Assembly (NCBI GenBank): GCA_002898315.1
Contig: BEHV01000002.1
Location: 124,001 to 188,000 of the forward strand
Origin: a bacterium HR19
GTDB lineage: Bacteria > Calescibacteriota > Calescibacteriia > Calescibacteriales > Calescibacteriaceae
Length of the DNA stretch: 64,000 nt
Reading direction: 5' to 3'
Both the position numbers and the translations under genes were made by a program. Within the stretch, counting starts at the first letter, position 1. Every line of letters begins with the position of its first letter. Shown here one piece after another: positions 4,760-61,433 of this stretch. The notes beneath the pieces are model-generated. The model searched no databases. It saw only the letters and a list, made by a program, of their open reading frames with translations, and was not told where the DNA came from.

Positions 4760-5281
4760 TCATTCCAGAACCTCAATAAAAATGTTTTCGTTTGAGTATA
4801 TTGAGATTTCTCCTGATAGTTTTATTGCTTCTTTTGCTATTTCTTCTGGTGGGAGCGAGGTGTGTTTGAGGAGTGCTTTTGCTACTGCAAGAGCTATTGG
4901 TCCTCCTGACCCTATTGCGGCGACATTATCATCTGGTGAGATGACATCTCCGTTTCCAGATATTACAAGTATATTTTGTTTGTCTGCGACAAGAAGCATT
5001 GAGGAGAGTTGACGGAGGGCTCTATCTGTTCTCCAATCTTTTGCTAATTCTATTGCAGATTTGAGAAGATTTCCACCGAACTCTTGGAGTTTCTTTTCAA
5101 ATCTTTCAAGCAGAGCCATGGAGTCGGCTGTGCTTCCAGCAAACCCTACGAGAACGCTGTTATTGTAAATTTTTCTCACCTTGCGTGTTGAGTGTTTGAA
5201 GATTATATCTCCTAATGTCATCTGACCATCAGAAGCCATAACGACTTTGCCATCTCTGTATATAGCTATGACGGTTGTCAA
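4760..5281 (-). CDS. hslV: ATP-dependent protease proteolytic subunit HslV
   Basis: The 173-residue protein is full length for HslV (ClpQ), the proteasome-like peptidase that works with the HslU unfoldase. It begins MTTV, so processing exposes the catalytic Thr2. The conserved K(V)RK, 'GFAGSTADSMAL', 'LLVAD', 'SG.GDV' and 'AIGSGG' segments are all visible. HslU is not adjacent, although the two are normally an operon. The start codon is only 9 nt downstream of the 3' end of tRNA-Asp on the same strand and has no Shine-Dalgarno site. Its mRNA may therefore be released by tRNA processing. Confidence 0.97.
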   Translation of the reverse strand: MTTVIAIYRDGKVVMASDGQMTLGDIIFKHSTRKVRKIYNNSVLVGFAGSTADSMALLERFEKKLQEFGGNLLKSAIELAKDWRTDRALRQLSSMLLVADKQNILVISGNGDVISPDDNVAAIGSGGPIALAVAKALLKHTSLPPEEIAKEAIKLSGEISIYSNENIFIEVLE

Positions 5282-5290
5282 TAGAATTTA

Positions 5291-5367
5291 TGGCGGGGCT
5301 GACGGGACTTGAACCCGCGACCTCCGGCTTGACAGACCGGCGTTCTAACCAGCTGAACTACAGCCCC
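5291..5367 (-). tRNA. tRNA-Asp (GTC)
   Basis: A 77-nt cloverleaf on the minus strand. The acceptor stem GGGGCTG pairs with CAGCCCC, and a discriminator G and encoded CCA follow. The anticodon stem CCGGT/GCCGG encloses loop CTGTCAA, so the anticodon is GTC (Asp). The T arm has GGTTCAA. An encoded CCA and a 9-nt gap to the hslV start codon are notable. Confidence 0.97.
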
Positions 5368-5477
5368 AAATGAAAATATATGATAAAAAATTTTTAATAT
5401 TGTCTTCCCTCTCTTTTTTCAATTTCAAAAATTTTTGTGAAGGCAAAAAATCAGCAAAAAACAATACACAAAAATAA

Positions 5478-7238
5478 GTGAAAAATTTTTTGAAGATGGG
5501 AAAGACAAAATCAGAACTCCTTGAAAATATAAAAGTGCTTTGTAATGGACTCTACGAAGATGCAAGGTTAAGAGATATGGTAGAGTTCGTCGTAAAACCC
5601 CAGAACCTTATTATGTTTGAAACAAAACTCAAAAATGATGGATTCAACATGATTCTTGACCTTTTCGGAGTTGATTTCTACAATAATCAAAGATTGAAAG
5701 ATTACGCGGGAGTAAAAGAAAGGTTTGCGGTGATATACCATTTCCTCAAAATACCGCAAAACGAAAGAGTAAGAGTTATTGTTCCTGTAAGCGAAGAGAA
5801 TCCTTCTGTGCCTTCATCTGTCAGATTGTTCAGGGGGGCAGATTGGTTTGAGAGAGAAGTTTATGACCTCTTCGGAATAAAATTTGAGGGACATCCAGAT
5901 TTGAGAAGAATAATGCTCCCCGAGGACTTTGAAGGTCATCCTCTGAGGAAAGATTTTCCTACAAAAGGAGTGAAAGAGTATGTTGGTACAAAATATACTC
6001 CTCGCCTTGTCAGGTTGCCAGGTAAAGAAAAACCACAAGATGTCTTTGAAGAAGGGTCAAGGATGATAATAAATGTTGGACCGACTCACCCTGCTACTCA
6101 CGGAACTTTCAGAATGATTTTTGAGCTTGAAGGTGAAGACATAGTTGGTGCGGATCTGGAAATAGGTTATCTTCACAGAGGTGTTGAAAAAAACGGTGAG
6201 AACATGAGATGGGAGGATTTCATTCCTATGACCGATAGGTTAAACTATCTTTCCGCATACCTTAACAATATGATTTATACAGAAATGCTGGAAAGATTTT
6301 TAGGTATATGGGATGATGTCCCGCAGAGAGCCAAATTCATAAGGGTTATTTTAGCAGAACTTTCAAGAATAGCAGACCACCTTGTTTCAATAGGGACCAT
6401 GGCAGTGGACCTCGGGGCGCTCACTCCGTTTTGGTATTTTTTCAAAGTCAGAGAGGAGATAAATTCTGTTTTTGAGTGGGCAGTTGGAGCACGACTCACA
6501 ACCTCTGGCACATCTGTTGGAGGTGTGAGAAGAGACCTTGACGAAAAAACAATAGAGAAAATAAAATGGATAATAGATGACCTCCTTCCAAAAGCTCTCA
6601 AAGATGTAGATGCTCTCCTTACAAAAAACAGAATATTTATAGATAGAACTCGCGGAATAGGAGTGGTATCGGCACAGGAAGCAATAGAATGGGGCTTTAC
6701 GGGTCCTTCTCTGAGAGGTTCAGGGGTAGCGTGGGATATAAGAAAAGTCCAGCCATATGGGCTTTACGAACTTTTTGATTTTGAAATACCTGTTGCGACA
6801 GAGGGAGATGTTTATTCAAGATACCTTGTCAGAATGGAGGAGATGGTTCAAAGCGCTAAAATAATAAGGCAAGCTCTTGAAAATATGCCACAAGATGGAA
6901 TAAGGATAAAGTCAGATAAGTTCGCTTCACTTCCTTCTTTGCCAGACAAAAAACTTGTATATACCCAAATAGAAGCTCTGATTCATCATTTCAAAGGAAT
7001 AGTTGAGGGAGTGGTTCCACCTTTTGGTTGGTTTTATTTTGGAGGGGAAGCGGCAAACGGTGAGCTTGGATTCTTCGCTATTTCAGATGGTAAAAGAACT
7101 CCGTGGAGAATAAGAATAAGACCTCCTTGCTTCGCTATATATCAGGCGTTCAGATACATGGTTTTGGGACACAAGCTTGCCGATTTTGTCGGAATTTTGG
7201 GGAGTATAAACATAGTCGCAGGAGAACTTGATAGATAG
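5478..7238 (+). CDS. nuoCD: NADH-quinone oxidoreductase fused subunits C and D (NuoCD)
   Basis: The 586-residue protein fuses NuoC (about 1-180) and NuoD (about 195-586), as in E. coli. NuoC shows the signature 'ERE(V)YDLFGI.F.GHPDLRRI' and 'LRKDFP'. NuoD shows 'GPTHPATHGT', 'GYLHRGVEK', 'DRLNYL' and the 'RIRPPCF..YQAF' region. It belongs to the quinone-binding peripheral arm of complex I or a related group 4 hydrogenase-like complex. The C-terminus reads GSINIVAGELDR, where an Asp is common at the Asn. No other nuo gene is in the window. The GTG at 5478 is used; the ATG at 5496 is equally possible, and both follow an A/T block without a Shine-Dalgarno site. Confidence 0.95.
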   Translation: MKNFLKMGKTKSELLENIKVLCNGLYEDARLRDMVEFVVKPQNLIMFETKLKNDGFNMILDLFGVDFYNNQRLKDYAGVKERFAVIYHFLKIPQNERVRVIVPVSEENPSVPSSVRLFRGADWFEREVYDLFGIKFEGHPDLRRIMLPEDFEGHPLRKDFPTKGVKEYVGTKYTPRLVRLPGKEKPQDVFEEGSRMIINVGPTHPATHGTFRMIFELEGEDIVGADLEIGYLHRGVEKNGENMRWEDFIPMTDRLNYLSAYLNNMIYTEMLERFLGIWDDVPQRAKFIRVILAELSRIADHLVSIGTMAVDLGALTPFWYFFKVREEINSVFEWAVGARLTTSGTSVGGVRRDLDEKTIEKIKWIIDDLLPKALKDVDALLTKNRIFIDRTRGIGVVSAQEAIEWGFTGPSLRGSGVAWDIRKVQPYGLYELFDFEIPVATEGDVYSRYLVRMEEMVQSAKIIRQALENMPQDGIRIKSDKFASLPSLPDKKLVYTQIEALIHHFKGIVEGVVPPFGWFYFGGEAANGELGFFAISDGKRTPWRIRIRPPCFAIYQAFRYMVLGHKLADFVGILGSINIVAGELDR

Positions 7239-7265
7239 AAATTTTTAAAATAAGGCAAACAAAAA

Positions 7266-8480
7266 GTGTATTCTGAAACCGATATGGGAATAGAAGATAG
7301 CACATCAGATAAAAAACCAGAAAAAGAAGTAATAAAGCCGTTCAGAGGTTTTTTGTATTCCCATCGCCTGAAAGATAAAATAAGCGATCTTATCTGCCCA
7401 CCTTACGATGTCATAGATGAGAAAATGCAGAGAGAACTTTTTGAAAAAAGTGAATTCAACTATGTGAGAATAGTTCTTTCACCTTATGGACACAACCACG
7501 CAACAGAAAGTTTGAAGAAATTTCTTCAAGAAAAAATAATAGAAAGAAGCGATGAAGAATCTATTTATGTTCTTGTTCAGAGTTTCTACGATGGAGAAGG
7601 AAAAAAGTTTGATTTCGTTGGGATTATTTCTCTTGTTTCATGTGATGCGAAAATAGTTGAGCACGAAAGAACGAAGCCAAAGGTAGTTGAGGATAGAATT
7701 GAGCTTCTTCAAAAAACCGGCTTCAATACCTGTCCGATATTCCTTATGACAGAAGGAAAAAATATAAGGAATTGGTATGAATCTTCAAAAAGCAGTTTCA
7801 AAAAGATTTTTGATTTTTCTTATGTTTCGTATGAGTATGAGATAAAGATTTTCGGCTCTTTGTTTTCATCACAAGATTTCTCAATCATCAGCAAGTTGCA
7901 AGATAAAGAATTCCTGATAGCAGACGGACATCACAGGTTCAATGCAATAAAGGAAGTGTACTATCAGAAAAAGAGCGAAAAGTTTTTTATGGCTTTTATT
8001 GCTGATGAGAGTTCAGGGTTTTTCATAATGCCATTTTTAAGAGAGGTAGAAAGCAAGTGGAAGGAGTATCTGAAATCGCTGAACTTTGATTTTATCTTAT
8101 CAAGGCAGAAAGTCCGCTTGCCTCAGAATATTGATATTTTTGCGCTTGCGAAGAACTTTGACGCGGACTTTCTTTTTATATTTGATGATGAAGCTGAAAA
8201 ATTGGTGTTGAGAAAACTTTTTGAAAAAAATCATCTTCAAGTTCTCCATGACTATATATTGAAAAATATTGAGGTAAATTTTGAAGCTAATATGTTAAAA
8301 TCTTTAAGAAAGATTCAAGGGGGGGATATAGGATGCGCAATTTTCCCAAGACCACTATCTATCCAGGAGATTTGGGAGATTGTAAGAAAAAAGAGCATCC
8401 TTCCCCCGAAGTCCACTTACTTTTGGCCAAAAATTCCATCAGGTCTTGTCTTGAACAAAACAAATTTCTCAGAACTTTAA
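7266..8480 (+). CDS. DUF1015 family protein
   Basis: This 404-residue protein matches the DUF1015 family. The N-terminal 'PFRG..YS' and 'ICPPYDVI' segments, the central 'IADGHHR(F)' motif (about residue 219) and the C-terminal 'LPPKSTYFWPKIPSGLV' are family hallmarks. DUF1015 proteins are cytosolic and are thought to be kinase-like relatives of the ParB/Srx fold. The substrate of this one is unknown. It follows nuoCD by 27 bp on the same strand, probably in one transcript. The start used is GTG at 7266; ATG at 7284 is an alternative. The conserved C-terminus confirms this frame to 8480 over an overlapping small frame beginning at 8333. Confidence 0.85.
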   Translation: MYSETDMGIEDSTSDKKPEKEVIKPFRGFLYSHRLKDKISDLICPPYDVIDEKMQRELFEKSEFNYVRIVLSPYGHNHATESLKKFLQEKIIERSDEESIYVLVQSFYDGEGKKFDFVGIISLVSCDAKIVEHERTKPKVVEDRIELLQKTGFNTCPIFLMTEGKNIRNWYESSKSSFKKIFDFSYVSYEYEIKIFGSLFSSQDFSIISKLQDKEFLIADGHHRFNAIKEVYYQKKSEKFFMAFIADESSGFFIMPFLREVESKWKEYLKSLNFDFILSRQKVRLPQNIDIFALAKNFDADFLFIFDDEAEKLVLRKLFEKNHLQVLHDYILKNIEVNFEANMLKSLRKIQGGDIGCAIFPRPLSIQEIWEIVRKKSILPPKSTYFWPKIPSGLVLNKTNFSEL

Positions 8481-8602
8481 ACTTTTTTTCAAAGTATTTC
8501 GTTTCCGGCAGTGTTGAATTTTTACCTTATTTTGATTCTTTGCTACTTCACAAGCTTTCTTCGGAACACTTTTTAATTAGATAAAAGAGGAGGTGAGGTA
8601 AT

Positions 8603-9673
8603 ATGCGTGGCGTTATTTTATCAGATAGCGGTACTATATCATATAATTCTGGAAAGGTTGGAGTAAGCAAGAAGAAAGGTTTGTACTATCCACTTCGGTT
8701 GGTTGAAGTTGAGATAACTTTGAGGTGTCCTTTGAGGTGTATTCATTGCAGTGTAGGTGGGGGAGAAAGTAAAGTTGATTTACCACTGGAAAAGTATATT
8801 GAACTCGTTGATGATTGCTACGAGCTCGGAGTTGAAGGAATTGATATAATAGGGGGAGAGCCACTTGCTTATCCACATATATACGAAGCCATAAGCTACA
8901 CTGTAAAGAAGATCCCGAAGACATACCTCAGTACTGCTGGATACTTCATAAATGAGAAGATGGCAGATAAATTGAAAAGTACGGGACTTGAATATGTATT
9001 TGTAAGTTTAGATGGTCCGACAAAAGAGAAGCACGAGAGAATAAGGGGTCCGGGGACATTTGAGAAAACGCTTTCGGCAATTCGCCTGCTCTCTGAAAAA
9101 GGTTTTTATGTTATAGTGTCTTTTGTCGCAACTTCTGAGACATTTTCTGATATTCCTGAGATGATTGAGCTATGTGAGAAAATATCTGCTAAAAAACTTT
9201 TTGTTCTTTCTTTTATTCCAGAGGGTAGGGGGAAGAAGGTAAGCAGTCTTACTCTGAAAGAGGATATGATAAAGCAGGTGATGAATTTTTATATTCATTA
9301 TAAGGGCGAAGTTGAGCTTGAATTTGATTGCTCTTTGAAAACTTACTTTGGAGACCTTCCATCAGATTGCCATATATGTCCAGCTGGTACGACATTCGCG
9401 ACCGTAAAGGTTAATGGTGATGTTTTTCCTTGTGGTTTTTTGCGTGACTACGAAAATCTGAAAGCTGGAAATATATTTGAGAGACGTTTCATAGAAATAT
9501 GGGGTGATGATGGGAATTTCTCTTATTTCAGAAAACCAATATCTGGTTGTGAAAGTTGTTCTATATACAAGGAGTGCAGAGGAGGATGCCAAGCGTTGAA
9601 AATAGGTAAGGTTTGTGATGGGAAACCATATATGAGGAAGCAGTTTTTTGCAGAGCTTGGTTTTGTAAAATAA
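8603..9673 (+). CDS. Radical SAM protein with SPASM domain
   Basis: A 356-residue protein. The radical SAM cluster motif is CPLRCIHC (residues 41-48), followed by the GGEP motif (about residue 94). A C-terminal SPASM-type domain has cysteines in C..CPAG, PCGFL, C..C(5)C...C and a final Cys, enough for two auxiliary [4Fe-4S] clusters. Relatives modify peptides (PqqE-, AlbA-like) or heme precursors (AhbC/NirJ-like). The substrate here cannot be assigned. A 40-residue N-terminal leader without a recognised domain precedes the cluster. A strong site, GAGGAGGTGAGG, ends 5 nt before the ATG. No RiPP precursor is obvious; a small frame (8333-8584) ending just upstream is probably spurious. Confidence 0.9.
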   Translation: MRGVILSDSGTISYNSGKVGVSKKKGLYYPLRLVEVEITLRCPLRCIHCSVGGGESKVDLPLEKYIELVDDCYELGVEGIDIIGGEPLAYPHIYEAISYTVKKIPKTYLSTAGYFINEKMADKLKSTGLEYVFVSLDGPTKEKHERIRGPGTFEKTLSAIRLLSEKGFYVIVSFVATSETFSDIPEMIELCEKISAKKLFVLSFIPEGRGKKVSSLTLKEDMIKQVMNFYIHYKGEVELEFDCSLKTYFGDLPSDCHICPAGTTFATVKVNGDVFPCGFLRDYENLKAGNIFERRFIEIWGDDGNFSYFRKPISGCESCSIYKECRGGCQALKIGKVCDGKPYMRKQFFAELGFVK

Positions 9674-9735
9674 CTCAATTTTCTCTTGAAACTTTTCTTA
9701 AAATTTCTTATGCTTTCAGTTAGAAAATAGCTTCT

Positions 9736-9969
9736 TTATTTCGCCTTCTTCACTTTTCTTCTTGATATAGGTTTTAGCTTTATTTCTCTTACAAGGTGGT
9801 TAGGTTTTCTTCCTCTGTTTTCCGGTGGAGGTGGTGGGTTGAGTTTATTTATTTCTGTGAGATTATCTGTTATTCTACCACAGATGATGCATTTTTTCAT
9901 CTGCAGTACTCCTTCGTGAGTTGATACCACTTCAAGAAACATTATTCCGCCACACTTCGTGCATCTCAT
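9736..9969 (-). CDS. Small zinc ribbon protein
   Basis: A 77-residue protein with two CxxC knuckles: CTKC at residues 3-6, and CIIC about 28 residues later. Together they form a zinc ribbon. The tail is basic, with a run of five prolines and an arginine/lysine-rich end, which suggests nucleic-acid or ribosome binding. I chose the ATG at 9969 because GGAGGG precedes it by 8 nt and because the CxxC then sits at the N-terminus. The upstream extension to 10266 is likely chance. That ribosome binding site is the 3' arm of a strong hairpin (see 9972-10003), so translation is probably regulated. The function is unknown. Confidence 0.75.
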   Translation of the reverse strand: MRCTKCGGIMFLEVVSTHEGVLQMKKCIICGRITDNLTEINKLNPPPPPENRGRKPNHLVREIKLKPISRRKVKKAK

Positions 9970-9971
9970 AA

Positions 9972-10003
9972 GCTCTTCCCTCCTTTTTTCGGAGGGAAAG
10001 AGC
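9972..10003 (-). promoter_or_regulatory. Hairpin sequestering the ribosome binding site of the zinc ribbon gene
   Basis: On the minus strand a CUCUUUCCCUCC arm, a GAAAAAA loop and a GGAGGGAAGAG arm form an 11-12 bp stem with one bulged base. The second arm contains the Shine-Dalgarno GGAGGG of the gene starting at 9969. The stem would block initiation until melted or bound, so this could be a thermosensor, a protein-binding autoregulatory site or an attenuator. It lies in the 219-bp divergent spacer 9970-10188, which also holds the start region of ispE and no other feature I can support. Confidence 0.65.
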
Positions 10004-10188
10004 CATTTCGCCTCTGCCCCTTTCTGCTTACCTTTTCTAAATAAATCGGAAAGATGAACAAAAACATTAGAAAATCTTCCAAGTTCATTCTCTCTTCGCT
10101 CTCGTTGAATTTTCTCTTTTATTTTTCTGAAATGAATATAGTTTCTTCTGAAAATCATTCTTTTGATGAGTGTGAGGTTATTGATGTT

Positions 10189-11022
10189 ATGGAGTGGAGT
10201 GTAAAGTGTCCCGCAAAAATCAACCTCTTTTTGTTTGTTGATGGTAAAAGAGAAGATGGATACCACGAAATTTTATCTCTTGTTGATACAATATCTCTCT
10301 GTGATGAGATAGTTATATCTGAAAGTCAAGAGAATGAAGTTTATTTTGATTCTCTGTGGGATATACCAGAAGGGAACACTGTGGAAAAGACGATAAAGCT
10401 TCTTTCAGTAGAAATAGGGAGATCTTTTAAGGTTGTGGTGAAAAAAAGGATTCCGCCGGGTTCTGGACTTGGAGGTGCTTCGTCTGATGCTGGCTCAATA
10501 ATAAGAGAATTCATGAGAAAAAATCTCATAGATTTTTCTACTGCCTTTTCTATTGCAGAAAAAATCGGAGGAGATGTCCCTCTTTTTCTTTTTAATCCTC
10601 CTACTTTGATATACGGAAAGGGGGAAAGAGTAAAGGAAGTCAAGTTGGTTGGGAGAGAAAAGGTGATTTTTGTTGTTGTCTGGCCAAATATAATTTCCAG
10701 CACTCCTTTGGTTTATAGTGAATTTGATAGAATCTACGGCGGAGATATAAAAAAAATTGATTTTTCAATACTTTCACAGAAGGAGTTTTCGTTTGATAGG
10801 TATATTGGTGTAAATGATCTTGAGACAGCTTTTCTCTCTCTTTATAAAGCTCATGCTATTAAAGATGTTCTCACAAGTTTTGGGAGATTTTATCTTACTG
10901 GTTCGGGTTCTGCTTATTTTTCTATTTTTTTTGATGAGATAGAGGCGGATTTTGTTTTCAGGTCTCTCAAAAAAAATTTTCAGTTTGTTTTCATGGCAAA
11001 ACCTTTTGAATTTTCAGAGTGA
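10189..11022 (+). CDS. ispE: 4-diphosphocytidyl-2-C-methyl-D-erythritol kinase
   Basis: A 277-residue GHMP kinase of the MEP isoprenoid pathway that phosphorylates the 2-OH of CDP-methylerythritol. The N-terminus has the PAKINLFL motif, and the ATP-binding loop is 'PPGSGLGGASSDA' (about residues 88-100). 'GGDVPLFL' and the late 'LTGSGSAYF' complete the family pattern. The start at 10189 places PAKINL near residue 9, as usual, and has GTGAGG upstream. An in-frame extension to 10054 is possible but atypical. The 3' end overlaps argD convergently by 9 bp. ispD, the preceding pathway enzyme, is about 25 kb away. Confidence 0.95.
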   Translation: MEWSVKCPAKINLFLFVDGKREDGYHEILSLVDTISLCDEIVISESQENEVYFDSLWDIPEGNTVEKTIKLLSVEIGRSFKVVVKKRIPPGSGLGGASSDAGSIIREFMRKNLIDFSTAFSIAEKIGGDVPLFLFNPPTLIYGKGERVKEVKLVGREKVIFVVVWPNIISSTPLVYSEFDRIYGGDIKKIDFSILSQKEFSFDRYIGVNDLETAFLSLYKAHAIKDVLTSFGRFYLTGSGSAYFSIFFDEIEADFVFRSLKKNFQFVFMAKPFEFSE

Positions 11023-12198
11023 TTTTTTGAATTTTTTCAGAACATTTATGAATATTGAAATTTCTCTCTCTGAGATTATAAACGGGGGCAGAATTCTTAT
11101 TCTGATTTCTTCTGTTGGAGTTTTTATCGTGTTGATTATTACGCCTTCGTTGAGGAAAAACTCGTTTATTTCTCTGGGTTCTTTTGAGATTTTGCCTATG
11201 ATTATTCCGAGCATAAGTCCCTTTCCGGAGACCTCAAATCCGATATTTTCTATTTCTTTTTTAAGGGTTTCTCCTTTTTTGAGAACGCTTTTGAGCATTT
11301 TTTTTATTTTTCTTATTGTTATTTTTCCTGCTGAGCATGAGAGAGGATTTCCGCCAAATGTAGATGCGTGCATTCCGGGTTTTATAAGTTCTGCTATTTT
11401 ATCTGATACCGCTGTCACTCCGAGCGGTAGTCCGCCTCCTATCGCTTTAGATGACACGAGTATATCTGGTTCTATATTTTCCCACTCAAAGCACCAGAAT
11501 TTTCCGGTTTTTCCGGCTCCTGTTTGTATCTCGTCTAAAATAAGCAGGGTTCCGGTCTCTTCGCAGGCGGATTTTAAGTTTTTCAGAAATCCTTGTGGTG
11601 GAGTTATTACTCCTGCCTCTCCCTGAATTGGCTCAACGATTACTCCTGCGAATTCAAGTTTTTTCAGTTCATTATAAACTGCATCAATATCTCCGTAAGG
11701 GACGAATTTGACTCCGGGCATGAGGGGTTCAAATGGTTTTCTGAAATCTTCTTTCCATGTTAAAGAGAGGGCACCATGAGTTCTTCCGTGAAAGCTTCCG
11801 AAAAAAGCTAAAAATTTTCTCCTTTTCTCATCAAAGGGGAGTTTTGCTATTTTTATTGCGGTTTCTACTGCTTCTGCTCCTGAGTTTGATAAGAATATTC
11901 TGTATTTTCCTTTGAGGGTTGAGATGAACTCTTTTGCGAATTCAATCTGGCTTTTCTGCCAGAAGAGATTAGAAAGATGCATGTGAAGTTTCAGCTGTTT
12001 TAATACCTCTTTTTTCACATCTTTGTCTGAGTGTCCCAAAGACATCACACCTATTCCGCTTATCATATCAAGGTATTTTCTGTTTTTTGAGTATATAAAT
12101 GCTCCTTCGGCTTTTTTGACTAAAAATGGATATCTCTGATATGTGTTGAGGAATAATTTTTCTATTTCTTGGGTCGTCATTTTTTCTGTTTTTCTCAT
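11014..12198 (-). CDS. argD: Acetylornithine-type aminotransferase (class III, PLP)
   Basis: The 394-residue protein is a class III aminotransferase. It shows 'SNSGAEAVE(T)AIKIA' for phosphate binding, 'FHGRTHGAL', 'GVIVEPIQGEAG', 'LILDEIQTGAGKTGK' and the PLP lysine in 'SSKAIGGGLPLG'. Length and motifs fit acetylornithine or acetyl-lysine aminotransferase (ArgD/LysJ) of arginine or lysine synthesis. The substrate cannot be fixed from sequence alone. The start overlaps the serS stop (ATGA), and serS contains the GGA upstream, so the two are coupled. The 3' end overlaps ispE by 9 bp. Confidence 0.9.
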   Translation of the reverse strand: MRKTEKMTTQEIEKLFLNTYQRYPFLVKKAEGAFIYSKNRKYLDMISGIGVMSLGHSDKDVKKEVLKQLKLHMHLSNLFWQKSQIEFAKEFISTLKGKYRIFLSNSGAEAVETAIKIAKLPFDEKRRKFLAFFGSFHGRTHGALSLTWKEDFRKPFEPLMPGVKFVPYGDIDAVYNELKKLEFAGVIVEPIQGEAGVITPPQGFLKNLKSACEETGTLLILDEIQTGAGKTGKFWCFEWENIEPDILVSSKAIGGGLPLGVTAVSDKIAELIKPGMHASTFGGNPLSCSAGKITIRKIKKMLKSVLKKGETLKKEIENIGFEVSGKGLMLGIIIGKISKEPREINEFFLNEGVIINTIKTPTEEIRIRILPPFIISEREISIFINVLKKFKKSL

Positions 12199-13445: not shown

Positions 13446-13518
13446 AGAATTTTATATTTTTGATTTGCTCTTCGGTTTCCCATAATTCAGTTTTTTATCT
13501 TGTAGGTTTTGGAATCTT

Positions 13519-17559: not shown

Positions 17560-17566
17560 ATTTTTT

Positions 17567-22596: not shown

Positions 22597-22672
22597 GCCC
22601 CCGTAGCTCAATAGGAAGAGCAGGGGACTTCTAATCCCCAGGTTGCGGGTTCGAGTCCCGCCGGGGGTACCA
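22597..22672 (+). tRNA. tRNA-Arg (TCT)
   Basis: A 76-nt cloverleaf. Acceptor GCCCCCG pairs with CGGGGGT (one G-U pair), then A and encoded CCA. Anticodon stem GGGGA/TCCCC encloses CTTCTAA, anticodon TCT (Arg, AGA/AGG codons). The T loop is GGTTCGAGTCC. The rtcB start codon follows after 9 nt with no Shine-Dalgarno sequence. Confidence 0.96.
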
Positions 22673-22681
22673 TAATTTGAA

Positions 22682-24118
22682 ATGGCAATAAAAAAAATAG
22701 ACAAATTGAAGTATCTTATAGAGAAGGAGGGTTCAATGAGAGTTCCTGCGGTTGTGTTTGCGAATGAAAAGATTTTTGAAAAGATTGTAGAAGATAAATC
22801 ATTAGAACAGCTCAAAAATGTCGCATCTTTACCGGGAATAGTCGGGAAAGCGATAGGTATGCCAGATATTCACTGGGGGTATGGAATGCCCGTTGGAGGT
22901 GTTGCTGCCTTTGACGCCGAAGAAGGAATAATAGGACCAGGAATGATAGGTTTTGATATAAACTGTGGGGTGAGATTACATATAACTTCACTTGTTTTTG
23001 AAGATATAAAAGATAAGATTGATAAGATTGTCAAAAAAATGTTTGAACTCATTCCTGCTGGGGTTGGACTTTCTGGACATGTTGAACTTGGAAAAAAGGA
23101 GATGAAAAATGTATGCGAGGAGGGGGCGAGATTTGTTGTGGAAAAACTTGGATTCGGCTCTCCCGATGAATTAGAAAATATAGAGTCATACGGCTGTATT
23201 GAGGGAGCTGATTTTTCTGCTGTTTCAGAGAAAGCGTATGAAAGGGGAAGAGATCAGCTCGGTACAGTAGGGTCGGGAAATCACTTTGTTGAGCTCGGTT
23301 ATGTTGAGAAGGTTTTCAAGAAAGACATAGCTGAAAAGTGGGGAGTTTTTGAGGGACAGGTCACTCTTCTTGTGCATTCTGGTTCTCGTGGTTTTGGTCA
23401 TCAGATATGTGAGGATTATCTGAAAGTAGCTTTGAGGTGGTGTGAGAAAAACAGAGCACCTCTGCCAGATAAACAGCTCGCATATATGGGTATAAATTCT
23501 TCCGAAGCAAAAAGTTATATATCTGCTATGAAGAGCGCTATAAACTACGCTTTTTCAAATCGTCTTATAATAGCTCATTATGCAAAAAAAGCTCTCGCAG
23601 ATGCTCTGGGTATAAAAGCAGAAAGTTTGGGCTGGAAACTGATTTACGATGTTGCCCACAATACCGCTAAATTTGAAGAGCATTTTGTTGATGGTAAAGT
23701 GAGAAAGGTTGTAGTCCACAGAAAAGGTGCTACTCGCGCTTTCCCAAAGGGGCATCCAGAACTTCCCGGAAAACACAGAGAAATAGGTCAGCCGGTCATA
23801 ATCCCGGGAGATATGGGAAGATACTCTTATATTCTTGTGGGAAATGAGAAAGCCATGGATGAGAGTTTTGGCTCAACCTGTCACGGTGCTGGGAGGGTTA
23901 TGTCCCGAAAACAAGCTATAAAATCAGCCAGAGGAAGAGATATAAGGCAGGAGCTTCTTAAAAAGAACATAATCGTTATGGCAAGAGAAGTTCATCTTCT
24001 TGCTGAGGAGATGTCAGATGCTTACAAAGATGTTGCAGATGTTGTGGAGGTCTGCGAAGAGGCTGGTCTCTCTCTTATAGTTGCTCGGCTAAAACCTGTT
24101 GGAGTTATAAAAGGATAA
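22682..24118 (+). CDS. rtcB: RNA-splicing ligase RtcB
   Basis: The 478-residue protein is a full-length RtcB, the GTP/Mn-dependent ligase that joins 2',3'-cyclic phosphate or 3'-phosphate RNA ends to 5'-OH ends. Metal and active-site motifs are all present: 'GFDINCGVR' (Cys ligand), 'GSGNHFVE', 'HSGSRGFGHQ', 'YDVAHN' and 'GSTCHGAGR', which contains the guanylylated His. Archease and RtcA are not adjacent. The start lies 9 nt after tRNA-Arg, so tRNA 3' processing could set the mRNA 5' end. That is suggestive for an RNA-repair enzyme, but no functional link is shown. Confidence 0.97.
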   Translation: MAIKKIDKLKYLIEKEGSMRVPAVVFANEKIFEKIVEDKSLEQLKNVASLPGIVGKAIGMPDIHWGYGMPVGGVAAFDAEEGIIGPGMIGFDINCGVRLHITSLVFEDIKDKIDKIVKKMFELIPAGVGLSGHVELGKKEMKNVCEEGARFVVEKLGFGSPDELENIESYGCIEGADFSAVSEKAYERGRDQLGTVGSGNHFVELGYVEKVFKKDIAEKWGVFEGQVTLLVHSGSRGFGHQICEDYLKVALRWCEKNRAPLPDKQLAYMGINSSEAKSYISAMKSAINYAFSNRLIIAHYAKKALADALGIKAESLGWKLIYDVAHNTAKFEEHFVDGKVRKVVVHRKGATRAFPKGHPELPGKHREIGQPVIIPGDMGRYSYILVGNEKAMDESFGSTCHGAGRVMSRKQAIKSARGRDIRQELLKKNIIVMAREVHLLAEEMSDAYKDVADVVEVCEEAGLSLIVARLKPVGVIKG

Positions 24119-52908: not shown

Positions 52909-52952
52909 AAATAAAATTGCGCAAGAACTGCTTAAAAAAATAAAAATAGTTC

Positions 52953-54953: not shown

Positions 54954-54973
54954 AGAGAAGAAATTAAGTTTTT

Positions 54974-55801
54974 TCATTGCTCAAGCGGGTGAAAGATGCT
55001 TTCTACAACAAATATGATTATCCATAGTATCACCGCTCCGATTATTTGTTTATCTACGACAAGAAGTGAAGGGTCTTTTCCTTTGTTCTGCTCCGCTACT
55101 ATGTAGTACCTTATTATTCCAAATACAACCGGTATTATTGAGAGGAGGAGGAAGTAGCTTTCTCTTTCTACTACGACATACATTGTGAAGAAGATAATTG
55201 TCAAAGTAGCAGATATCAAACCGATGGTTTCGTAGATTTTTGATTGTTCCTGTGTTTCTGCTTCTCTTTTCATCGCAGATATAAAAAGTGATACAAAAAA
55301 CGTGCATGTGATAAGCCAAGAGGAAGGTTTAACAGATATGGCTATCCCTCCTGCTAAAACTCTTATTACAAATCCAAGAGAGATGATTATTATATCAGCT
55401 GGTGTGTTGCCTTTTATACGCAGTGAATATACGACATTAAGGAGAAAGTAAATCATAATTACCGCTTTGATGTATATATTATCTGCAATGGCAAGAGATA
55501 GCAGAAGAAGTGAAGAAGAAAAGAGTATTGCTTCTTTTTTTGATATAGTTCCGCTTGCTACGGGACGATTTTTTTTTACGGGATGGTTTTTGTCTTTTTC
55601 GTAGTCGATCACATCGTTCAGAGAGTATACAGAAGATGATGCAAAGATAAAGCAGATGAGAGTGATTAATGATTTCAGGATTTTTTCTTTTGAGAACGAG
55701 AAGGAGAAAAATAAAGGAGCAAGTACAAAGACGTTTTTGTGCCACTGAAAAGGTCTTGAAAGTTTCAAAAACACAAGAATTTTACTTTTTGCTGTTTTCA
55801 T
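54974..55801 (-). CDS. UbiA-family prenyltransferase (decaprenyl-phosphate phosphoribosyltransferase-like)
   Basis: A 275-residue membrane protein with about eight hydrophobic helices. 'LSRPFQWHKNVFVLAPLFF' and the Asp-rich 'NDVIDYEKDKNHPVKKNRPVASG' match the UbiA subgroup that includes decaprenyl-phosphate 5-phosphoribosyltransferase. 'RVLAGGIAISVKPSSWLI' and 'KREAET' also match that group. It probably attaches a phosphosugar to polyprenyl phosphate. It is divergent from tRNA-Pro and convergent with the repeat protein. The acceptor chemistry is inferred. Confidence 0.85.
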   Translation of the reverse strand: MKTAKSKILVFLKLSRPFQWHKNVFVLAPLFFSFSFSKEKILKSLITLICFIFASSSVYSLNDVIDYEKDKNHPVKKNRPVASGTISKKEAILFSSSLLLLSLAIADNIYIKAVIMIYFLLNVVYSLRIKGNTPADIIIISLGFVIRVLAGGIAISVKPSSWLITCTFFVSLFISAMKREAETQEQSKIYETIGLISATLTIIFFTMYVVVERESYFLLLSIIPVVFGIIRYYIVAEQNKGKDPSLLVVDKQIIGAVILWIIIFVVESIFHPLEQ

Positions 55802-55898
55802 TTTTCTTTCTTCCTGTTTGCGACTCTACTTACTGATATTTTTAGAAATTTGGCTTTTGTTTTGTTGGATACATATATTTTTAGGGATAGGGGGAAAT

Positions 55899-55973
55899 CG
55901 GGGCGTGGCGTAGAGGTAGCGCGTTGGCATGGGGGGCCAAAGGTCGCCGGTTCAAATCCGGTCGCCCCGACCA
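55899..55973 (+). tRNA. tRNA-Pro (GGG)
   Basis: A 75-nt cloverleaf. Acceptor CGGGGCG pairs with CGCCCCG, then A and encoded CCA. Anticodon stem TTGGC/GCCAA encloses ATGGGGG, anticodon GGG (Pro, CCC/CCU). The T arm has GGTTCAAATCC. trxA starts 11 nt downstream with no Shine-Dalgarno site. Confidence 0.95.
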
Positions 55974-55984
55974 CCCAAACCAAA

Positions 55985-56302
55985 ATGGCAATACAACTTG
56001 ACGACAAAAACTTCGATAATGAAATAAACTCAGAAAAACCAATACTTGTTGATTTCTGGGCTGCTTGGTGCGCCCCTTGCAGAGCAATAGCTCCAATACT
56101 TGAAGAAATAGAAAAAGAAGACGGTGAAAAAATAAGAATAGGAAAACTCAATGTAGATGAATACCCTGACATCGCTTCAAGATTCAAAATATTCTCTATC
56201 CCAACCCTCGTCATATTTAAGTCGGGTAAGGAATTAGGAAGAATGGTAGGTGCAGCACCAAAATCTAAACTCAAACAGTTTATAGAAGAATCCCTAAAAT
56301 AA
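55985..56302 (+). CDS. trxA: Thioredoxin
   Basis: The 105-residue thioredoxin fold has active site WCAPC (about residues 28-32) in 'VDFWAAWCAPCRAIAPILEE', the cis-proline 'SIPTLVIFKSG', and a C-terminal helix. It is full length. A reading frame continuing upstream runs through tRNA-Pro and is not coding. The start is 11 nt after the tRNA, and its mRNA may be set by tRNA 3' processing. sufD follows after 25 bp. Confidence 0.97.
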   Translation: MAIQLDDKNFDNEINSEKPILVDFWAAWCAPCRAIAPILEEIEKEDGEKIRIGKLNVDEYPDIASRFKIFSIPTLVIFKSGKELGRMVGAAPKSKLKQFIEESLK

Positions 56303-56327
56303 CCAAAATCCCTTAAAAATTAACTGA

Positions 56328-57386
56328 ATGCAAGAAATCAAAGGAAGATATATAAGAGTAAAACTCCCAGATAACCTCAAAAGCGTTGAATGGAGAAAAT
56401 CAGATAGCGAAACAAGAGTCCAAGTATTCCTCAAACTCTTCAACAAAGAAAGAGAAAAAAATCAGGTCTTCGTTTTTGCGGATGAGGGAATTTTTATCGC
56501 AAATTCAAATGTAAAATCTGACATCAGAACAAACAAAGCAGAAATCGGAGATACTAGTTTTGAGACAAACGAATTAGCTCTTTTCATCTTTGAAAGTTCA
56601 GATGTTTTCTTGATATTCGGAGAGAACCAAGCAAACTATGTCAGCTCAATCTCTATAACGGTAGAGAGCGGGATATCTGTAAACCTTTTTGAAATCTGGA
56701 AGACGCCCCCGCAATCTTCTTCATTTAACATAACAAAAATTTATCTCAAACCGTCAAGTTCTCTTAAACTGCTGTTTTTAGAAAACACAGAAGAATCATC
56801 CCTCGTGGTTCAGAAAAAAAAGTTTTTTATCTCAGAAAGCTCTGATATGTACGGAGGAAATATATGGAGGGGATTAGGAAAAACCTTCGTTTCAGAGGAG
56901 GTATATCTTGATGGAGATGAGAGTTCTTTGAGGGATTTTCACCTGTGCTTGGGAGAAGGTAAGAAAAAACTTGAAGTAAATTACAAAGTTTTTCACAGAG
57001 GGAAAAGGACAAAAAGTTTTGTATCTTCTAAAATTATTTTGAAAGATAGCTCAGAGATTGCTTTCCTTGAAGATGCAGAGATAGAAAATTCAGCTCTTGA
57101 TTCCGACTCTTATGTAGAGGGCAAGTCGCTGATTCTTTCGGAAAAAGCCAAAAACTTCCTTATTCCGTCAATGAATATAGGGGTAAATATAGTCAAGGCG
57201 AAGCACTCTGCTTCTTGTAGTAGAGTGGGGGAAAAAGAACTCTTCTATCTTATGTCAAGAGGTCTTGATAGAGAAACTGCCGAAAAACTTATAATATATG
57301 GTTTTATATCAGAGATACTTAATGAGTTCCCTTTGAAACGTTTTATTCCCAAACTCCCTGATTTCCCCCAAGACCTTTTGCTTTGA
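56328..57386 (+). CDS. sufD: Fe-S cluster assembly protein SufD (divergent)
   Basis: The 352-residue protein has a diverged N-terminal half, but the C-terminal third shows the SufB/SufD beta-helix end: 'VKAKHSASCSRVGEKELFYLMSRGLDRETAEKLIIYGF'. The His in 'KHSAS' corresponds to the SufD metal-site His, and the 'LFYLMSRGL' segment is diagnostic. SufD pairs with SufB in the SufBC2D scaffold. sufB is 28 kb upstream and sufC is not seen. The 3' end overlaps the diguanylate cyclase gene convergently by 44 bp. It could instead be a SufB paralogue. Confidence 0.85.
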   Translation: MQEIKGRYIRVKLPDNLKSVEWRKSDSETRVQVFLKLFNKEREKNQVFVFADEGIFIANSNVKSDIRTNKAEIGDTSFETNELALFIFESSDVFLIFGENQANYVSSISITVESGISVNLFEIWKTPPQSSSFNITKIYLKPSSSLKLLFLENTEESSLVVQKKKFFISESSDMYGGNIWRGLGKTFVSEEVYLDGDESSLRDFHLCLGEGKKKLEVNYKVFHRGKRTKSFVSSKIILKDSSEIAFLEDAEIENSALDSDSYVEGKSLILSEKAKNFLIPSMNIGVNIVKAKHSASCSRVGEKELFYLMSRGLDRETAEKLIIYGFISEILNEFPLKRFIPKLPDFPQDLLL

Positions 57387-58704
57387 GCAATCTCTTATCT
57401 GCAACTTTTATTATCTCCTCGTAGTTTGAATCCGCTTCTTTTACTGCACATAAGCCCCAGCTCACAGTGGGGCTTTCCCCAAGAATAGCTTTGAGTTCTT
57501 GATATAAACTGAATTTTCCAGTTATCCTCCTTATGACAGATATACTTTCCTCTTTCTCTATTTCATCAAGAAGAAGAACGAACTCATCTCCTCCAAATCT
57601 TGCAGGTATATCGTATCCTCTTACATTCTGCTTCAAAATAAGAGCGAATTTTTTCAAAATCTCATCTCCTACTGTATGACCGTACTTATCATTGATTGAC
57701 TTGAATCTATCTATGTCAAATATAACTACAACATAGTTTTTCTGAGTTCTCCTGTATTTTGCAAAGTTTTGTTCTAAGCGAGCCATAAAATATCTTCTGT
57801 TGTATATTGCGGTAAGAGGGTCTGTGATAGCTTTTATTTTTAGCTCTTCTTCGGTCTCTATGCGTTTGAGTATAGCAGATGTTAATTTTGAGATAAGATA
57901 GAGAAGATTCTTCTTGTTTGCGTCAAGTTCTCCTCTCACTACTATAAATCCATACTTTTCTCCGTTAGATAATGGAAATGAAGTGTATTCTTTCTCTTCT
58001 TCTATCATTCCCTTTGCTATACTATCTATGATTTTGCTTAAAAACTCCTCTCCTTTGATTATCTTTATTTTTTCTTTTTTGTCGGTTTCTGTTATTACTT
58101 CTTGTTCAGAACTCTTCTCAAATATAGCTATGCCTATTTCATTTTGGGGTAGTATATACTCCAAAAAATTTCCAACTTCTCTGAAAAGTTTATATCTATC
58201 TGTTTCCGCAATTGAGTATCTTATAAAGTTTGTGAGGTAAATGATAAATTTTTCATGCTTATCAGCAGAAACTAATTTTTCTTTGATTCCTTTTTTGGTT
58301 TTCAGTATTGTATAGAATATTTCTTCTAACTCTTTTGATAATTCAGGAATACTGATTTTCTCTAATTTTTCGTCCGGGCTTTTGGGGGAAGATGCTTTTT
58401 CTTCCTTTCCTTCTGGATTTTCTAATATATTTTTTATGTATTTCAGCTCTTCAAAGAAATTCAATATCTTTGATATGAACTCTCTGTAAATTATAAAGCT
58501 CAAAATAAAGAGCGAAAAAGCAATTAAAATGAAAGAGATTATATCTATCCTCCCAAAGATGTGGAGCAAAAGGAGAATAATGAAAATAGTTGCAGGAATA
58601 ATAAAAAAGCTCTTTGGAAGAATGAAAAATATTCTCATTTTCGCCAGGGCGAGCGAGGCAAAAGAAAATAAAACAAAAAGCAGTATATACAAAGTGATTT
58701 CCAT
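57343..58704 (-). CDS. Membrane diguanylate cyclase (GGDEF)
   Basis: The 453-residue protein has three N-terminal hydrophobic segments (about 3-22, 30-50, 54-75). A charged linker, a sensor-like region (about 130-285, GAF-like by position only) and a C-terminal GGDEF domain follow. The active site 'RFGGDEF' is intact. RGYD, five residues before it, is a canonical inhibitory I-site (RxxD), so product feedback is expected. 'DPLTAIYNRRYF' and 'FDIDRFKSIND' support activity. It makes c-di-GMP. The 3' end overlaps sufD by 44 bp. No EAL or PilZ gene is seen. Confidence 0.93.
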   Translation of the reverse strand: MEITLYILLFVLFSFASLALAKMRIFFILPKSFFIIPATIFIILLLLHIFGRIDIISFILIAFSLFILSFIIYREFISKILNFFEELKYIKNILENPEGKEEKASSPKSPDEKLEKISIPELSKELEEIFYTILKTKKGIKEKLVSADKHEKFIIYLTNFIRYSIAETDRYKLFREVGNFLEYILPQNEIGIAIFEKSSEQEVITETDKKEKIKIIKGEEFLSKIIDSIAKGMIEEEKEYTSFPLSNGEKYGFIVVRGELDANKKNLLYLISKLTSAILKRIETEEELKIKAITDPLTAIYNRRYFMARLEQNFAKYRRTQKNYVVVIFDIDRFKSINDKYGHTVGDEILKKFALILKQNVRGYDIPARFGGDEFVLLLDEIEKEESISVIRRITGKFSLYQELKAILGESPTVSWGLCAVKEADSNYEEIIKVADKRLLKAKGLGGNQGVWE

Positions 58705-58808
58705 ATTTGCTCAATCTCCTTCCTCACGATTTCCCGATACAATAAAAAATATAAAAATCCTGAATATACTTATTGCTTTACTTATACTTTTTTCTTGTAT
58801 CTTATTTT

Positions 58809-59435
58809 ATGGTTGTGAAGATATGTGGTCTGACAAATGAGGAAGATGTTCTGCTATGCGACAGCGAAGGAGCAGATATGCTCGGATTCATATTTATAAG
58901 GCAAAGCCCAAGATATGTAGAGAAGGGCTCAAAAATCTTTAAATTGAAAACTCGTGCGAAAAAGGTTGCTGTGCTATCAAATCCAGAGATAAAAAATATT
59001 GAATTCTTCGCAGAGCATTTTGAGTTCGTTCAGCTACACGGATTGGAAGAAAGAAAAACTATAAATGAATTCAAAAAAATCGGTTTGAAAATCATAAAGA
59101 CAATTTTCCCGGAAGTTGAAGAGTCGGTAAAGCTGTGCTTTCAAGTTTCAGATGTAGTTGACCTTTTTCTTGTTGATTCGTCTTCCAAACTCAAAGGAGT
59201 AAAGAGTTCCCTCTTTTCATTAGAAAAACTGAAAGATATATTAGATAGTGAAGGAAAGATTCTCGGTGTGAATTACATATTATCTGGTGGCTTAAATCCC
59301 GAAAATGTTGTAGAATTTCTCAGAATCTTAAAGCCCTACGGTGTTGATGTCGCCTCTGGTGTAGAGGACTCTCCCGGAAAAAAATCTCCCGAAAAAGTGA
59401 GAAAATTCATACTAAGTGTAAAAAATTTTTCTTAA
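58809..59435 (+). CDS. trpF: Phosphoribosylanthranilate isomerase
   Basis: A 208-residue TIM-barrel enzyme of tryptophan synthesis. It begins 'VVKICGLTNEED' (KICG(L/I)T signature). 'FIFIRQSPRYV', 'FVQLHG', 'SGGLNPENV' and 'GVDVASGVEDSPGKKSPEKV' are conserved. I chose the ATG at 58809 because the KICGLT motif must be at the N-terminus; the frame from 58773 adds a hydrophobic leader that is not part of TrpF. pgeF follows after 2 bp. The nearest trp gene is trpB, at the other end of the window. Confidence 0.95.
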   Translation: MVVKICGLTNEEDVLLCDSEGADMLGFIFIRQSPRYVEKGSKIFKLKTRAKKVAVLSNPEIKNIEFFAEHFEFVQLHGLEERKTINEFKKIGLKIIKTIFPEVEESVKLCFQVSDVVDLFLVDSSSKLKGVKSSLFSLEKLKDILDSEGKILGVNYILSGGLNPENVVEFLRILKPYGVDVASGVEDSPGKKSPEKVRKFILSVKNFS

Positions 59436-59437
59436 AC

Positions 59438-60109
59438 ATGCATAAAATCAACTCAAAAATGCGCGAGATAGATTCAGGAATACAATTTGATTTTCCAACC
59501 GGAGAAAAAGGTATCTTCTTCTTCAAGAATTTTCAAATCACAGAAGAATTCATAAACGATATGGTTCTTGCGAGACAAAATCATACGGGAACAAATATAA
59601 TTTATCCAGATGAATACAATAAATTTGAATTTTTTGATGGCTTGGTCTCTTATAGGAGTGTAAGGCAATATCTTGGTGTTAAGACCGCAGATTGTCTCCC
59701 TGTTCTTTTCGCATCAGAGAAGTTAAAGGGTTGCTTTCATTCTGGATGGAGAGGTCTGATAAACGGTATAGTTGAAAACCTTTATGAAAAGGTGAAAATT
59801 ATGGGTGAGGATTTTTCAGAAATAACATTTGTTATTGGACCTCATATCTGTGGCAGATGCTATGAAGTCAAGGAAGATGTAGCCGATATTTTCATAAGAT
59901 TTGCAAAGGAGAAAGGTATCAGCCAGAGTGTATTTATGTATTTCAAAGACCACAAGATTTTTATTGATCTTGCTTCCTGCTGTAAGGCCTTGCTCAAAAC
60001 ATTTTCTGTAAAAAAAATTTTTGATGTCCAGATATGTGTTAAAGAAGATATGAGGTTTTTTTCAAGAAGAAGGGGAGATAATTCCTCGCAGATTTCAGTG
60101 ATATTTTAG
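59438..60109 (+). CDS. pgeF: Laccase-domain protein PgeF/YfiH
   Basis: A 223-residue member of the DUF152 laccase-domain family. 'KTADCLPVLFA' and 'GCFHSGWRGL(I)NGI' carry the zinc-ligand Cys and His, and 'GPHICGRCYEVKEDV' follows. Family members are purine nucleoside phosphorylases/adenosine deaminases or peptidoglycan editing factors; which activity applies is unclear. The ATG follows an AAAAATTTTT block and is 2 bp after trpF. A late extra copper-type site is not evident. Confidence 0.92.
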   Translation: MHKINSKMREIDSGIQFDFPTGEKGIFFFKNFQITEEFINDMVLARQNHTGTNIIYPDEYNKFEFFDGLVSYRSVRQYLGVKTADCLPVLFASEKLKGCFHSGWRGLINGIVENLYEKVKIMGEDFSEITFVIGPHICGRCYEVKEDVADIFIRFAKEKGISQSVFMYFKDHKIFIDLASCCKALLKTFSVKKIFDVQICVKEDMRFFSRRRGDNSSQISVIF

Positions 60110-60205
60110 GATGAATTTTGTGTTTAGTTATTGAGCGTGGGAGAGCATATTTTGTAAAAGAAGATATTTTTGTCCGAAGGTAATAAAATAATTTTTTTAT
60201 ATTGG

Positions 60206-60292
60206 GGGTAGGTGGCGGAATGGTAGACGCAGGGGACTTAAAATCCCCTGGGGGTGTAAACCCCCGTGCGGGTTCAAGTCCCGCCCTACCCA
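60206..60292 (+). tRNA. tRNA-Leu (TAA), CCA not encoded
   Basis: An 87-nt class II tRNA. Acceptor GGGTAGG pairs with CCTACCC. Anticodon stem GGGGA/TCCCC encloses CTTAAAA, anticodon TAA (Leu, UUA/UUG). A long variable arm with GGGGG/CCCCC follows the anticodon stem. After discriminator A (60292) the genome reads CAT rather than CCA, unlike the other three tRNAs here, so a CCA-adding enzyme is needed. The FIST gene starts 10 nt downstream. Confidence 0.95.
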
Positions 60293-60302
60293 CATATTAT
60301 TT

Positions 60303-61433
60303 GTGTTTTGTACAACCTCTTTCTCTAACATCAAAAGCGAAGAAAAAGCATGCAAGAGCATCATAGATGAAGTTATAAGTAAACTTGAACTACCGAGAAA
60401 AAAAGATATGATGCTCATAATTTTCCTCAGCTCAAAATACAAAGTTGAAAAAGTGATGGATTTTTTTTCAGATATAGATAATATCGGTGTCTCTGTTGGT
60501 GGAAATATAACAGATGATGGTGAATTTGAAGGAGAAGAGTCAGGAATATCTGTTCTCGCAATAGATAAAAGGTATATCCGTTGTCAGAGCTTCTCTTTTT
60601 CCGTCCCACAAATGGGATTGAGGGAAGTAGGTAGAAAAATCGCAGAAAGATTTGCAACAGACATACCATCATCTCTAATTCTTTTTCCAACCCCTTTTTA
60701 TAACATAGATGAAATTCTGAACGGAATAAGAGATATAAAAAGTGATAACCTTTTTGTAACCGGAGGAGTAGCGAGTTCTTATGGAGATTCTCCTATCTTT
60801 ACATTTGAAAATGGCTCGATAGGAAGCTATGCGATAAGTGGAGTGTTTTTGGAAGGTGTGGAGGGAAGCGGAAGAGTTGCTCAGAGCTGTAAAGTTGTGA
60901 GCAGTAAGTTTGTGGTTACATCATCAGAAACCAATGTCATAGAGGAGATAGATGGAGAGTTAGCTTCTGATGTGTTGAACTATGTTGCTTCTGAAGTAAT
61001 TACCGAAGAACCCGATATAGGAAAATTACCATGGTTCGTCGGAGTTGAAATTGACAGCAGATTGGAGCTGTTCAGATTCTATCCTATTTTAGATGTCAAA
61101 AACGGGTATATATATGTTGGTGGTGAAGTGGAGGTAGGAAAAAACATAGTGTTTGCGGTTATGTCTCGGAAATATGCAGATGAGATTTCAAAAATGGAGT
61201 TTTCATCCATCAGTCCTAATTTATCTTACGATTTTTGCATGATTTTCAACTGCCTTGCGAGAGGAAAAAAGTTTTTCGGAAGAAAAAATCACGATATATC
61301 AATAGTAAAAAAGAGATTGAAGTGTTCTATAGGTGGGTTTTTTTCAAACGGTGAAATAATAACTTTGGGTTCGCCTTTTCTTTTCACATACTCAGCAGTT
61401 CTCGCAAATTTCAGAAAAGTTTTCATATCGTAA
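60303..61433 (+). CDS. FIST N/C domain sensory protein
   Basis: The 376-residue protein matches the FIST family: N-terminal domain 'GVSVGGNITDDGEF' and 'SGISVLAID', a central 'FVTGGVASSYGD' strand, and FIST_C features such as 'GRVAQSCKVV' and the CxxRG motif 'CLARGKKFFG'. FIST proteins are cytosolic small-molecule sensors (amino acids suspected) that couple to chemoreceptors, GGDEF or histidine-kinase outputs. The start is GTG at 60303, ten nt after tRNA-Leu and without a Shine-Dalgarno site. The next genes encode MCP-like membrane coiled-coil proteins, a plausible output partner. Confidence 0.88.
   Translation: MFCTTSFSNIKSEEKACKSIIDEVISKLELPRKKDMMLIIFLSSKYKVEKVMDFFSDIDNIGVSVGGNITDDGEFEGEESGISVLAIDKRYIRCQSFSFSVPQMGLREVGRKIAERFATDIPSSLILFPTPFYNIDEILNGIRDIKSDNLFVTGGVASSYGDSPIFTFENGSIGSYAISGVFLEGVEGSGRVAQSCKVVSSKFVVTSSETNVIEEIDGELASDVLNYVASEVITEEPDIGKLPWFVGVEIDSRLELFRFYPILDVKNGYIYVGGEVEVGKNIVFAVMSRKYADEISKMEFSSISPNLSYDFCMIFNCLARGKKFFGRKNHDISIVKKRLKCSIGGFFSNGEIITLGSPFLFTYSAVLANFRKVFIS

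Follow-up and report, generated by a model that had tools for sequence, protein, structure and literature searches.

The window analysed here, a 64,000-nucleotide stretch of a draft bacterial genome (G000; 1.88 Mb, 82% complete, 45 detected tRNA genes), carries four tRNA genes, each of which lies directly upstream of a protein gene on the same strand. The hslV gene of the window is 73–81% identical to hslV on named Candidatus Calescibacterium (EM19/Calescamantes) contigs, and the source of the window is a relative of that group, a poorly known one from hot springs. The four tRNA–gene pairs are composed as follows:

4760–5281, minus strand: hslV, TTG start, first gene 3′ of tRNA-Asp (Pfam Proteasome, 2.9e-23)
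5282–5290, minus strand: spacer from tRNA-Asp to hslV, 9 nt from CCA, 12 nt from the discriminator, without a Shine–Dalgarno motif (sequence)
5291–5367, minus strand: tRNA-Asp(gtc), CCA encoded, discriminator at 5294 (ARAGORN; Rfam RF00005, 74.1 bits over 5294–5367)
22597–22672, plus strand: tRNA-Arg(tct), CCA encoded, discriminator at 22669 (ARAGORN; Rfam)
22673–22681, plus strand: spacer from tRNA-Arg to rtcB, 9 nt from CCA, 12 nt from the discriminator (sequence)
22682–24118, plus strand: rtcB, ATG start (Pfam RtcB, 2.1e-164)
55899–55973, plus strand: tRNA-Pro(ggg), CCA encoded, discriminator at 55970 (ARAGORN; Rfam)
55974–55984, plus strand: spacer from tRNA-Pro to trxA, 11 nt from CCA, 14 nt from the discriminator (sequence)
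55985–56302, plus strand: trxA (thioredoxin), ATG start (Pfam Thioredoxin, 5.6e-31)
60206–60292, plus strand: tRNA-Leu(taa), no encoded CCA, discriminator A at 60292 with CAT next (ARAGORN; Rfam)
60293–60302, plus strand: spacer from tRNA-Leu to the FIST gene, 10 nt from the discriminator (sequence)
60303–61433, plus strand: FIST-domain protein gene, GTG start (Pfam FIST, 3.6e-18)

ARAGORN and Rfam are concordant for all four tRNAs, with Rfam scores of 62–74 bits. The loci, genes and spacer coordinates are as given in the original prediction, which placed the four tRNAs 9–11 nt before same-strand genes, but that range mixed two rulers: the values of 9, 9 and 11 nt for tRNA-Asp, tRNA-Arg and tRNA-Pro were counted from the encoded CCA, and the 10 nt for tRNA-Leu, which encodes no CCA, from the discriminator. 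On one ruler, the gap being taken throughout as the distance from the discriminator base to the start codon, the spacings are 12 nt (Asp–hslV), 12 nt (Arg–rtcB), 14 nt (Pro–trxA) and 10 nt (Leu–FIST). The absence of a Shine–Dalgarno (SD) sequence from these genes, also predicted, was borne out, with AGGA, GGAG and GAGG all missing from the 22 nt upstream at 4/4 starts; the anti-SD sequence at the 3′ end of the 16S rRNA is intact (GGATCACCTCCTTTC).

The spacings recur in related genomes. Four relatives from the same family were compared with G000, giving five drafts (G000–G004) of 82–86% completeness; G002 is nearly identical to G000 at hslV (98%) and was thus not counted as independent evidence. 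The TTG start of hslV and its 12-nt discriminator gap are also present in G002, G003 and G004, and a Candidatus C. nevadense contig (L062) has an hslV TTG 11 nt after the discriminator. The TTG assignment is sound because the active threonine must directly follow the initiator (MTT...) and because the codon is kept in three more genomes. The GTG start of the FIST gene, at 10 nt, is likewise found in G002 and G004.

The genome-wide survey covered the sequence around every tRNA of G000, G003 and G004 and around 45 of the 46 in G002, together with sample stretches. Genes were called with a home-made codon-usage model trained on long open reading frames, each gene was scored at its called and at its leftmost in-frame start, and gaps of 6–16 nt were classed as short. 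Same-strand protein–protein neighbours from the same sequence, treated by identical start rules, served as the control for gap counts (Fisher test). The next feature after the 45 tRNAs of G000 is a same-strand CDS in 33 cases, an opposite-strand CDS in eight and another tRNA in three; the remaining one, the rRNA-operon tRNA-Ala, has no called downstream protein gene. Short gaps make up 23/33 of the same-strand cases with called starts and 25/33 with leftmost starts, the mode being 9 nt, compared with 2/68 and 4/68, respectively, of the protein–protein gaps (p about 7e-13; 6.6e-13 for called starts). G003 (24/37 short tRNA–CDS gaps versus 3/31 protein–protein; p = 4e-6) and G004 (24–25/37 versus 4–5/42; p = 1e-6 to 9e-8) show the same excess. 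The tRNA-to-start spacing excess is thus confirmed as far beyond chance genome-wide, and the sharp excess at 8–12 nt that a survey of the whole genome and its relatives had been predicted to give was found in three genera. The regularity that the original prediction saw at all four window tRNAs is a genome-wide trend, but 4/4 was slightly lucky: it holds for about 70–75% of tRNAs with a same-strand downstream gene, and roughly one in four to one in three of the same-strand tRNA–CDS cases have longer gaps.

Samples of G085 and G010, with few tRNAs in each, gave no sign of short spacing, and tRNAs on named contigs of other phyla have 0/6 short gaps with called starts and 2/6 with leftmost starts. 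Since the start rules admit TTG and GTG and the leftmost start, and about 10 of the 21 tallied short-gap starts in G000 are TTG or GTG, an artefact of start calling near tRNAs has to be weighed. We regard it as very improbable: the same rule returned only the 4/68 protein–protein gaps noted above and no short tRNA–CDS gap in the unrelated control genomes of other phyla (0/12 in G014, 0/13 in G222), and the N-termini of HslV, DnaX-like, thioredoxin, Prs-like and ribokinase-like proteins begin as expected and align between genera. As the protein–protein controls were scored identically, the excess is not due to the counting of leftmost starts.

The two sides of the tRNA genes differ. On the 5′ side, same-strand upstream gaps have a median of 70–110 nt, only two per genome fall at 0–16 nt, and otherwise the neighbour is divergent; protein–protein gaps in the same genomes are broad, with a median of about 46–74 nt. 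Neighbours on the opposite strand, too, end only a few nucleotides from tRNA 3′ ends, and the genomes are compact, which would suit a reading in which the tRNA stays uncut until translation, ribosomes loading either on the tRNA–mRNA as it stands or on mRNA from an internal promoter within the tRNA gene, and the short gap reflects packing. We think this unlikely: the protein–protein gaps are broad and the 5′ side is not compact, so that general packing does not account for the sharp mode at 9 nt. As a separate observation, the genes following tRNA-Ser(gga), tRNA-Thr(ggt) and tRNA-Trp (L025, L013 and L003) appear by eye to be SmpB-like, MreB-like and SecE-like, respectively. At tRNA-Leu(caa) (L038, L225 and L253) a conserved TTGAACA-A-ATTC lies directly 3′ of the tRNA and the next called gene begins 93–111 nt further on; this element is possibly a short open reading frame or a promoter element.

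Comparison between genera indicates that the length of the leader is conserved, rather than its sequence or the identity of the gene. There are 71 orthologous tRNA–gene pairs between genera, and the gap is short on both sides in 57 of these; across the 57 pairs mean leader identity is 35%, and the lengths differ by no more than 1 nt in 28. The 12-nt Asp–hslV gap of G000, G002, G003 and G004, for example, is filled by leader sequences that are unrelated between genera. At Lys(ctt), Ala(ggc), Leu(tag), Arg(ccg) and Ser(gga) the partner gene has been swapped with the spacing retained, close to 9 nt; Lys(ctt), for instance, is followed in G000 by a gene for a protein of 86 aa but in G004 by a GAPDH-like gene, with a gap of 10 nt in both. 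The partner of Ala(cgc) in G000 resembles that of Ala(ggc) in G004. That leader length is held while sequence and partners change argues that the spacing is under selection, and that it does not reflect a few lucky inherited junctions. Most tRNA–gene pairs are orthologous between genera, as would follow if an ancestral chance placement of genes after tRNAs had been passively kept without function, but the replacement of the leaders at constant length, the swapping of partners and the occurrence of the same spacing in an unrelated lineage make such passive inheritance a quite unlikely explanation.

That lineage is represented by G093, a 1.6-Mb genome from another family, outside this phylum, to which a crude pattern scan (T-arm, 18–23 nt, ATG) over 386 genomes had pointed. 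The T-arm pattern count itself proved too crude to serve as a ruler: Calescibacterium genomes give 8–20 hits, which is high but not unique, and G222 gives 23 hits yet had 0/13 short gaps on inspection. In G093 a same-strand CDS comes next for 35 of the 42 tRNAs, and the gaps are short in 18/35 cases with called starts and 24/35 with leftmost starts, versus 8–9/42 for protein–protein neighbours (p = 0.004 and 6e-5); this genome is more compact overall. A sample of its congener G361 contains 3–4/9 short gaps. The short spacing in G093 implies that the trait arose more than once, or that it predates the phylum. Leaders in G093 and G361 are even scarcer in G (3/168).

The leaders also have a distinctive composition: A makes up 47% and G 7% after tRNAs, compared with 36% and 16%, respectively, ahead of other genes (p = 1e-7 for the difference in G). 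SD sequences are near-absent from tRNA-linked starts, which have short leaders; the mean anti-SD duplex energy at these starts is −1.33, compared with −1.11 for shuffled sequences. One exception is Glu(ctc) in G000 and G002 (L037 and L224), where the gap is 28–29 nt and a clear SD, AAAGGAG (GAAAGGAG), is present, as expected if those genes initiate conventionally. An SD is also missing from many first-of-operon genes in G000, so its absence is not special to tRNA-linked genes. Anti-SD pairing of the first genes of divergent pairs in the window is barely above shuffled, and genes after longer same-strand gaps do pair. A search of ordinary genes for short uniform 5′ leaders gave no clear −10 box peak at a fixed distance from the start codons.

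Evidence on promoters comes from both sides of the tRNA. We observed a weak excess of −10-like motifs 16–20 nt before tRNA 5′ ends (20 versus 10.9, sd 3.5; z about 2.6). No −10-like or TATAAT-like motif was detected at −60 to −11 upstream of 69 tRNA-linked starts, nor inside the tRNAs; the protein genes are thus without a visible promoter of their own, which also speaks against ribosome loading on mRNA from an internal promoter. In the uncut transcripts the acceptor stem would end 9–14 nt short of the start codon; folding predicted it to be paired up to the leader for three of the window's four pairs, and the fourth, the tRNA-Pro transcript, was misfolded by the folding model. The 30S subunit needs single-stranded mRNA, and an acceptor stem that is still folded 9 nt ahead of the start should block its loading on an uncut transcript. 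From the paired acceptor stem beside the start and the lack of an own promoter, we infer that the mRNA is generated by tRNA 3′ cleavage.

In the reading that we consider probable, one transcript spans tRNA and mRNA, and cleavage at the tRNA 3′ end leaves the mRNA with a short leader. Most tRNA genes of Calescibacterium and its family would be the first cistron of such a unit, transcribed from a promoter upstream of the tRNA, with read-through to the protein gene; an endonuclease that matures the tRNA, cutting at the discriminator or one nucleotide past it, would then create the mRNA 5′ end. The released leader, of about 8–11 nt, would be A-rich, G-poor and devoid of an SD, and the ribosome would initiate on this near-leaderless end. 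Spacing would be selected, shorter gaps leaving too little mRNA before the start codon and longer ones being rare. The arrangement itself is seen in the genome sequences; that tRNA and mRNA share a transcript and are cut apart, by what kind of nuclease, and how ribosomes would start on the product are deductions from it. The original proposal, that tRNA 3′ processing yields short-leader mRNAs, is strengthened by the predicted 8–12-nt excess and by the conservation of length, but its cleavage step belongs to these deductions, and the canonical enzyme for that step was not found in the five drafts.

Neither of the canonical RNase Z models, TIGR02651 and TIGR02650, has a match above cut-off in the five drafts (G000–G004; 82–86% complete). 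The best match to an RNase Z model is a 256-aa metallo-β-lactamase protein (L268) that scores 45.8 bits against a cut-off of 293; this score is far under the cut-off, and among solved structures the protein is closest to a class-II cyclic-nucleotide phosphodiesterase, so we do not put it forward as the missing RNase Z. A second metallo-β-lactamase match (L381) looked lactonase/glyoxalase-like by eye.

The tRNA 3′ ends themselves are informative. CCA is encoded in 17–21 of the 44–46 tRNAs per genome, so that more than half need CCA addition, and gap length is independent of encoded CCA (p = 0.32). Every tRNA of G000, G002 and G003 has C74 after the discriminator, including 78/78 of those without CCA, in which positions 75 and 76 vary freely. 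The invariant C74 suggests a 3′ nuclease, or a CCA-adding step, that needs or leaves C74. Cleavage after C74 has been mapped in Streptomyces coelicolor (PMC4681348), and in Propionibacterium acnes, which has no obvious tRNase Z, cleavage was mapped between the two Cs of CCA (PMC3848588).

As a variant of the co-transcription and cleavage model, a non-canonical nuclease may cut after C74, and not after the discriminator, with the CCA-adding enzyme restoring CA; the mRNA leader would then be 1 nt shorter than the gap, so that the modal gap of 9 nt would yield a leader of 8 nt. The invariance of C74 in G000, G002 and G003 while positions 75 and 76 vary, the lack of an RNase Z above cut-off in the five drafts, the equal gap lengths with and without encoded CCA, and the mapped precedents in P. 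acnes (PMC3848588) and S. coelicolor (PMC4681348), to which the link is ours, all point this way. Against it, G004 has C74 in only 20/25 of its non-CCA tRNAs, lacking it in 5/46 tRNAs overall, and in G093 only 17/36 non-CCA tRNAs have C74 despite the same spacing. We therefore hold the cut after C74 as a tentative possibility.

Several known systems resemble this arrangement in part. In animal mitochondria there is essentially no gap between tRNA and mRNA. As in mitochondrial tRNA punctuation, tRNAs here adjoin mRNAs genome-wide, and their excision would set 5′ ends that lack a leader and an SD. The organelle-like punctuation of the original prediction applies to one side of the tRNA, its 3′ side abutting mRNA 5′ ends, but mRNA 3′ ends do not abut tRNAs, and 6–16 nt remain. 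The system also differs from the mitochondrial one in its promoter-sized upstream gaps, its set of about 45 tRNAs and its setting in a free-living bacterium, and, whereas organelle punctuation uses RNase Z (ELAC), the canonical enzyme was not found in the five drafts.

Single bacterial tRNA–mRNA operons are textbook knowledge, and in one such cotranscript, E. coli thrU-tyrU-glyT-thrT-tufB, the tRNA comes first and a protein gene in the same transcript is split off by tRNA processing, much as proposed here. Known bacterial cotranscripts are, however, isolated cases with longer spacers and normal ribosome-binding sites, whereas in these genomes the short spacing is found at most tRNAs. P. acnes is alike in that about half of its tRNAs encode CCA and no obvious tRNase Z is present, and an endonucleolytic end after C74 would be in keeping with the invariance of C74 described above; it differs in that most of its tRNAs are reported to be individually transcribed and no protein gene is reported directly 3′ of them (PMC3848588). 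Our search of the open-access literature turned up mitochondrial punctuation and isolated examples, and it gave no report of tRNA–mRNA abutment across a whole bacterial genome.

In its fullest form, the proposal would be that in a bacterial phylum, and independently in at least one other lineage, dozens of core-gene mRNAs owe their 5′ ends to an RNase Z-independent cut after C74, translation being obligatorily coupled to tRNA processing and 30S initiation occurring on leaders of about 8 nt without an SD. We regard this form as doubtful. If true, organelle-style punctuation would count as a strategy of free-living bacteria rather than a peculiarity of organelles with reduced genomes. Expression of the HslV, RtcB, thioredoxin, MreB-like, DnaX-like, SmpB-like, SecE-like and other genes would be coupled to the supply of particular tRNAs, the mRNAs would be natural substrates for SD-independent initiation on very short leaders, and the arrangement would point to a new tRNA 3′ nuclease.
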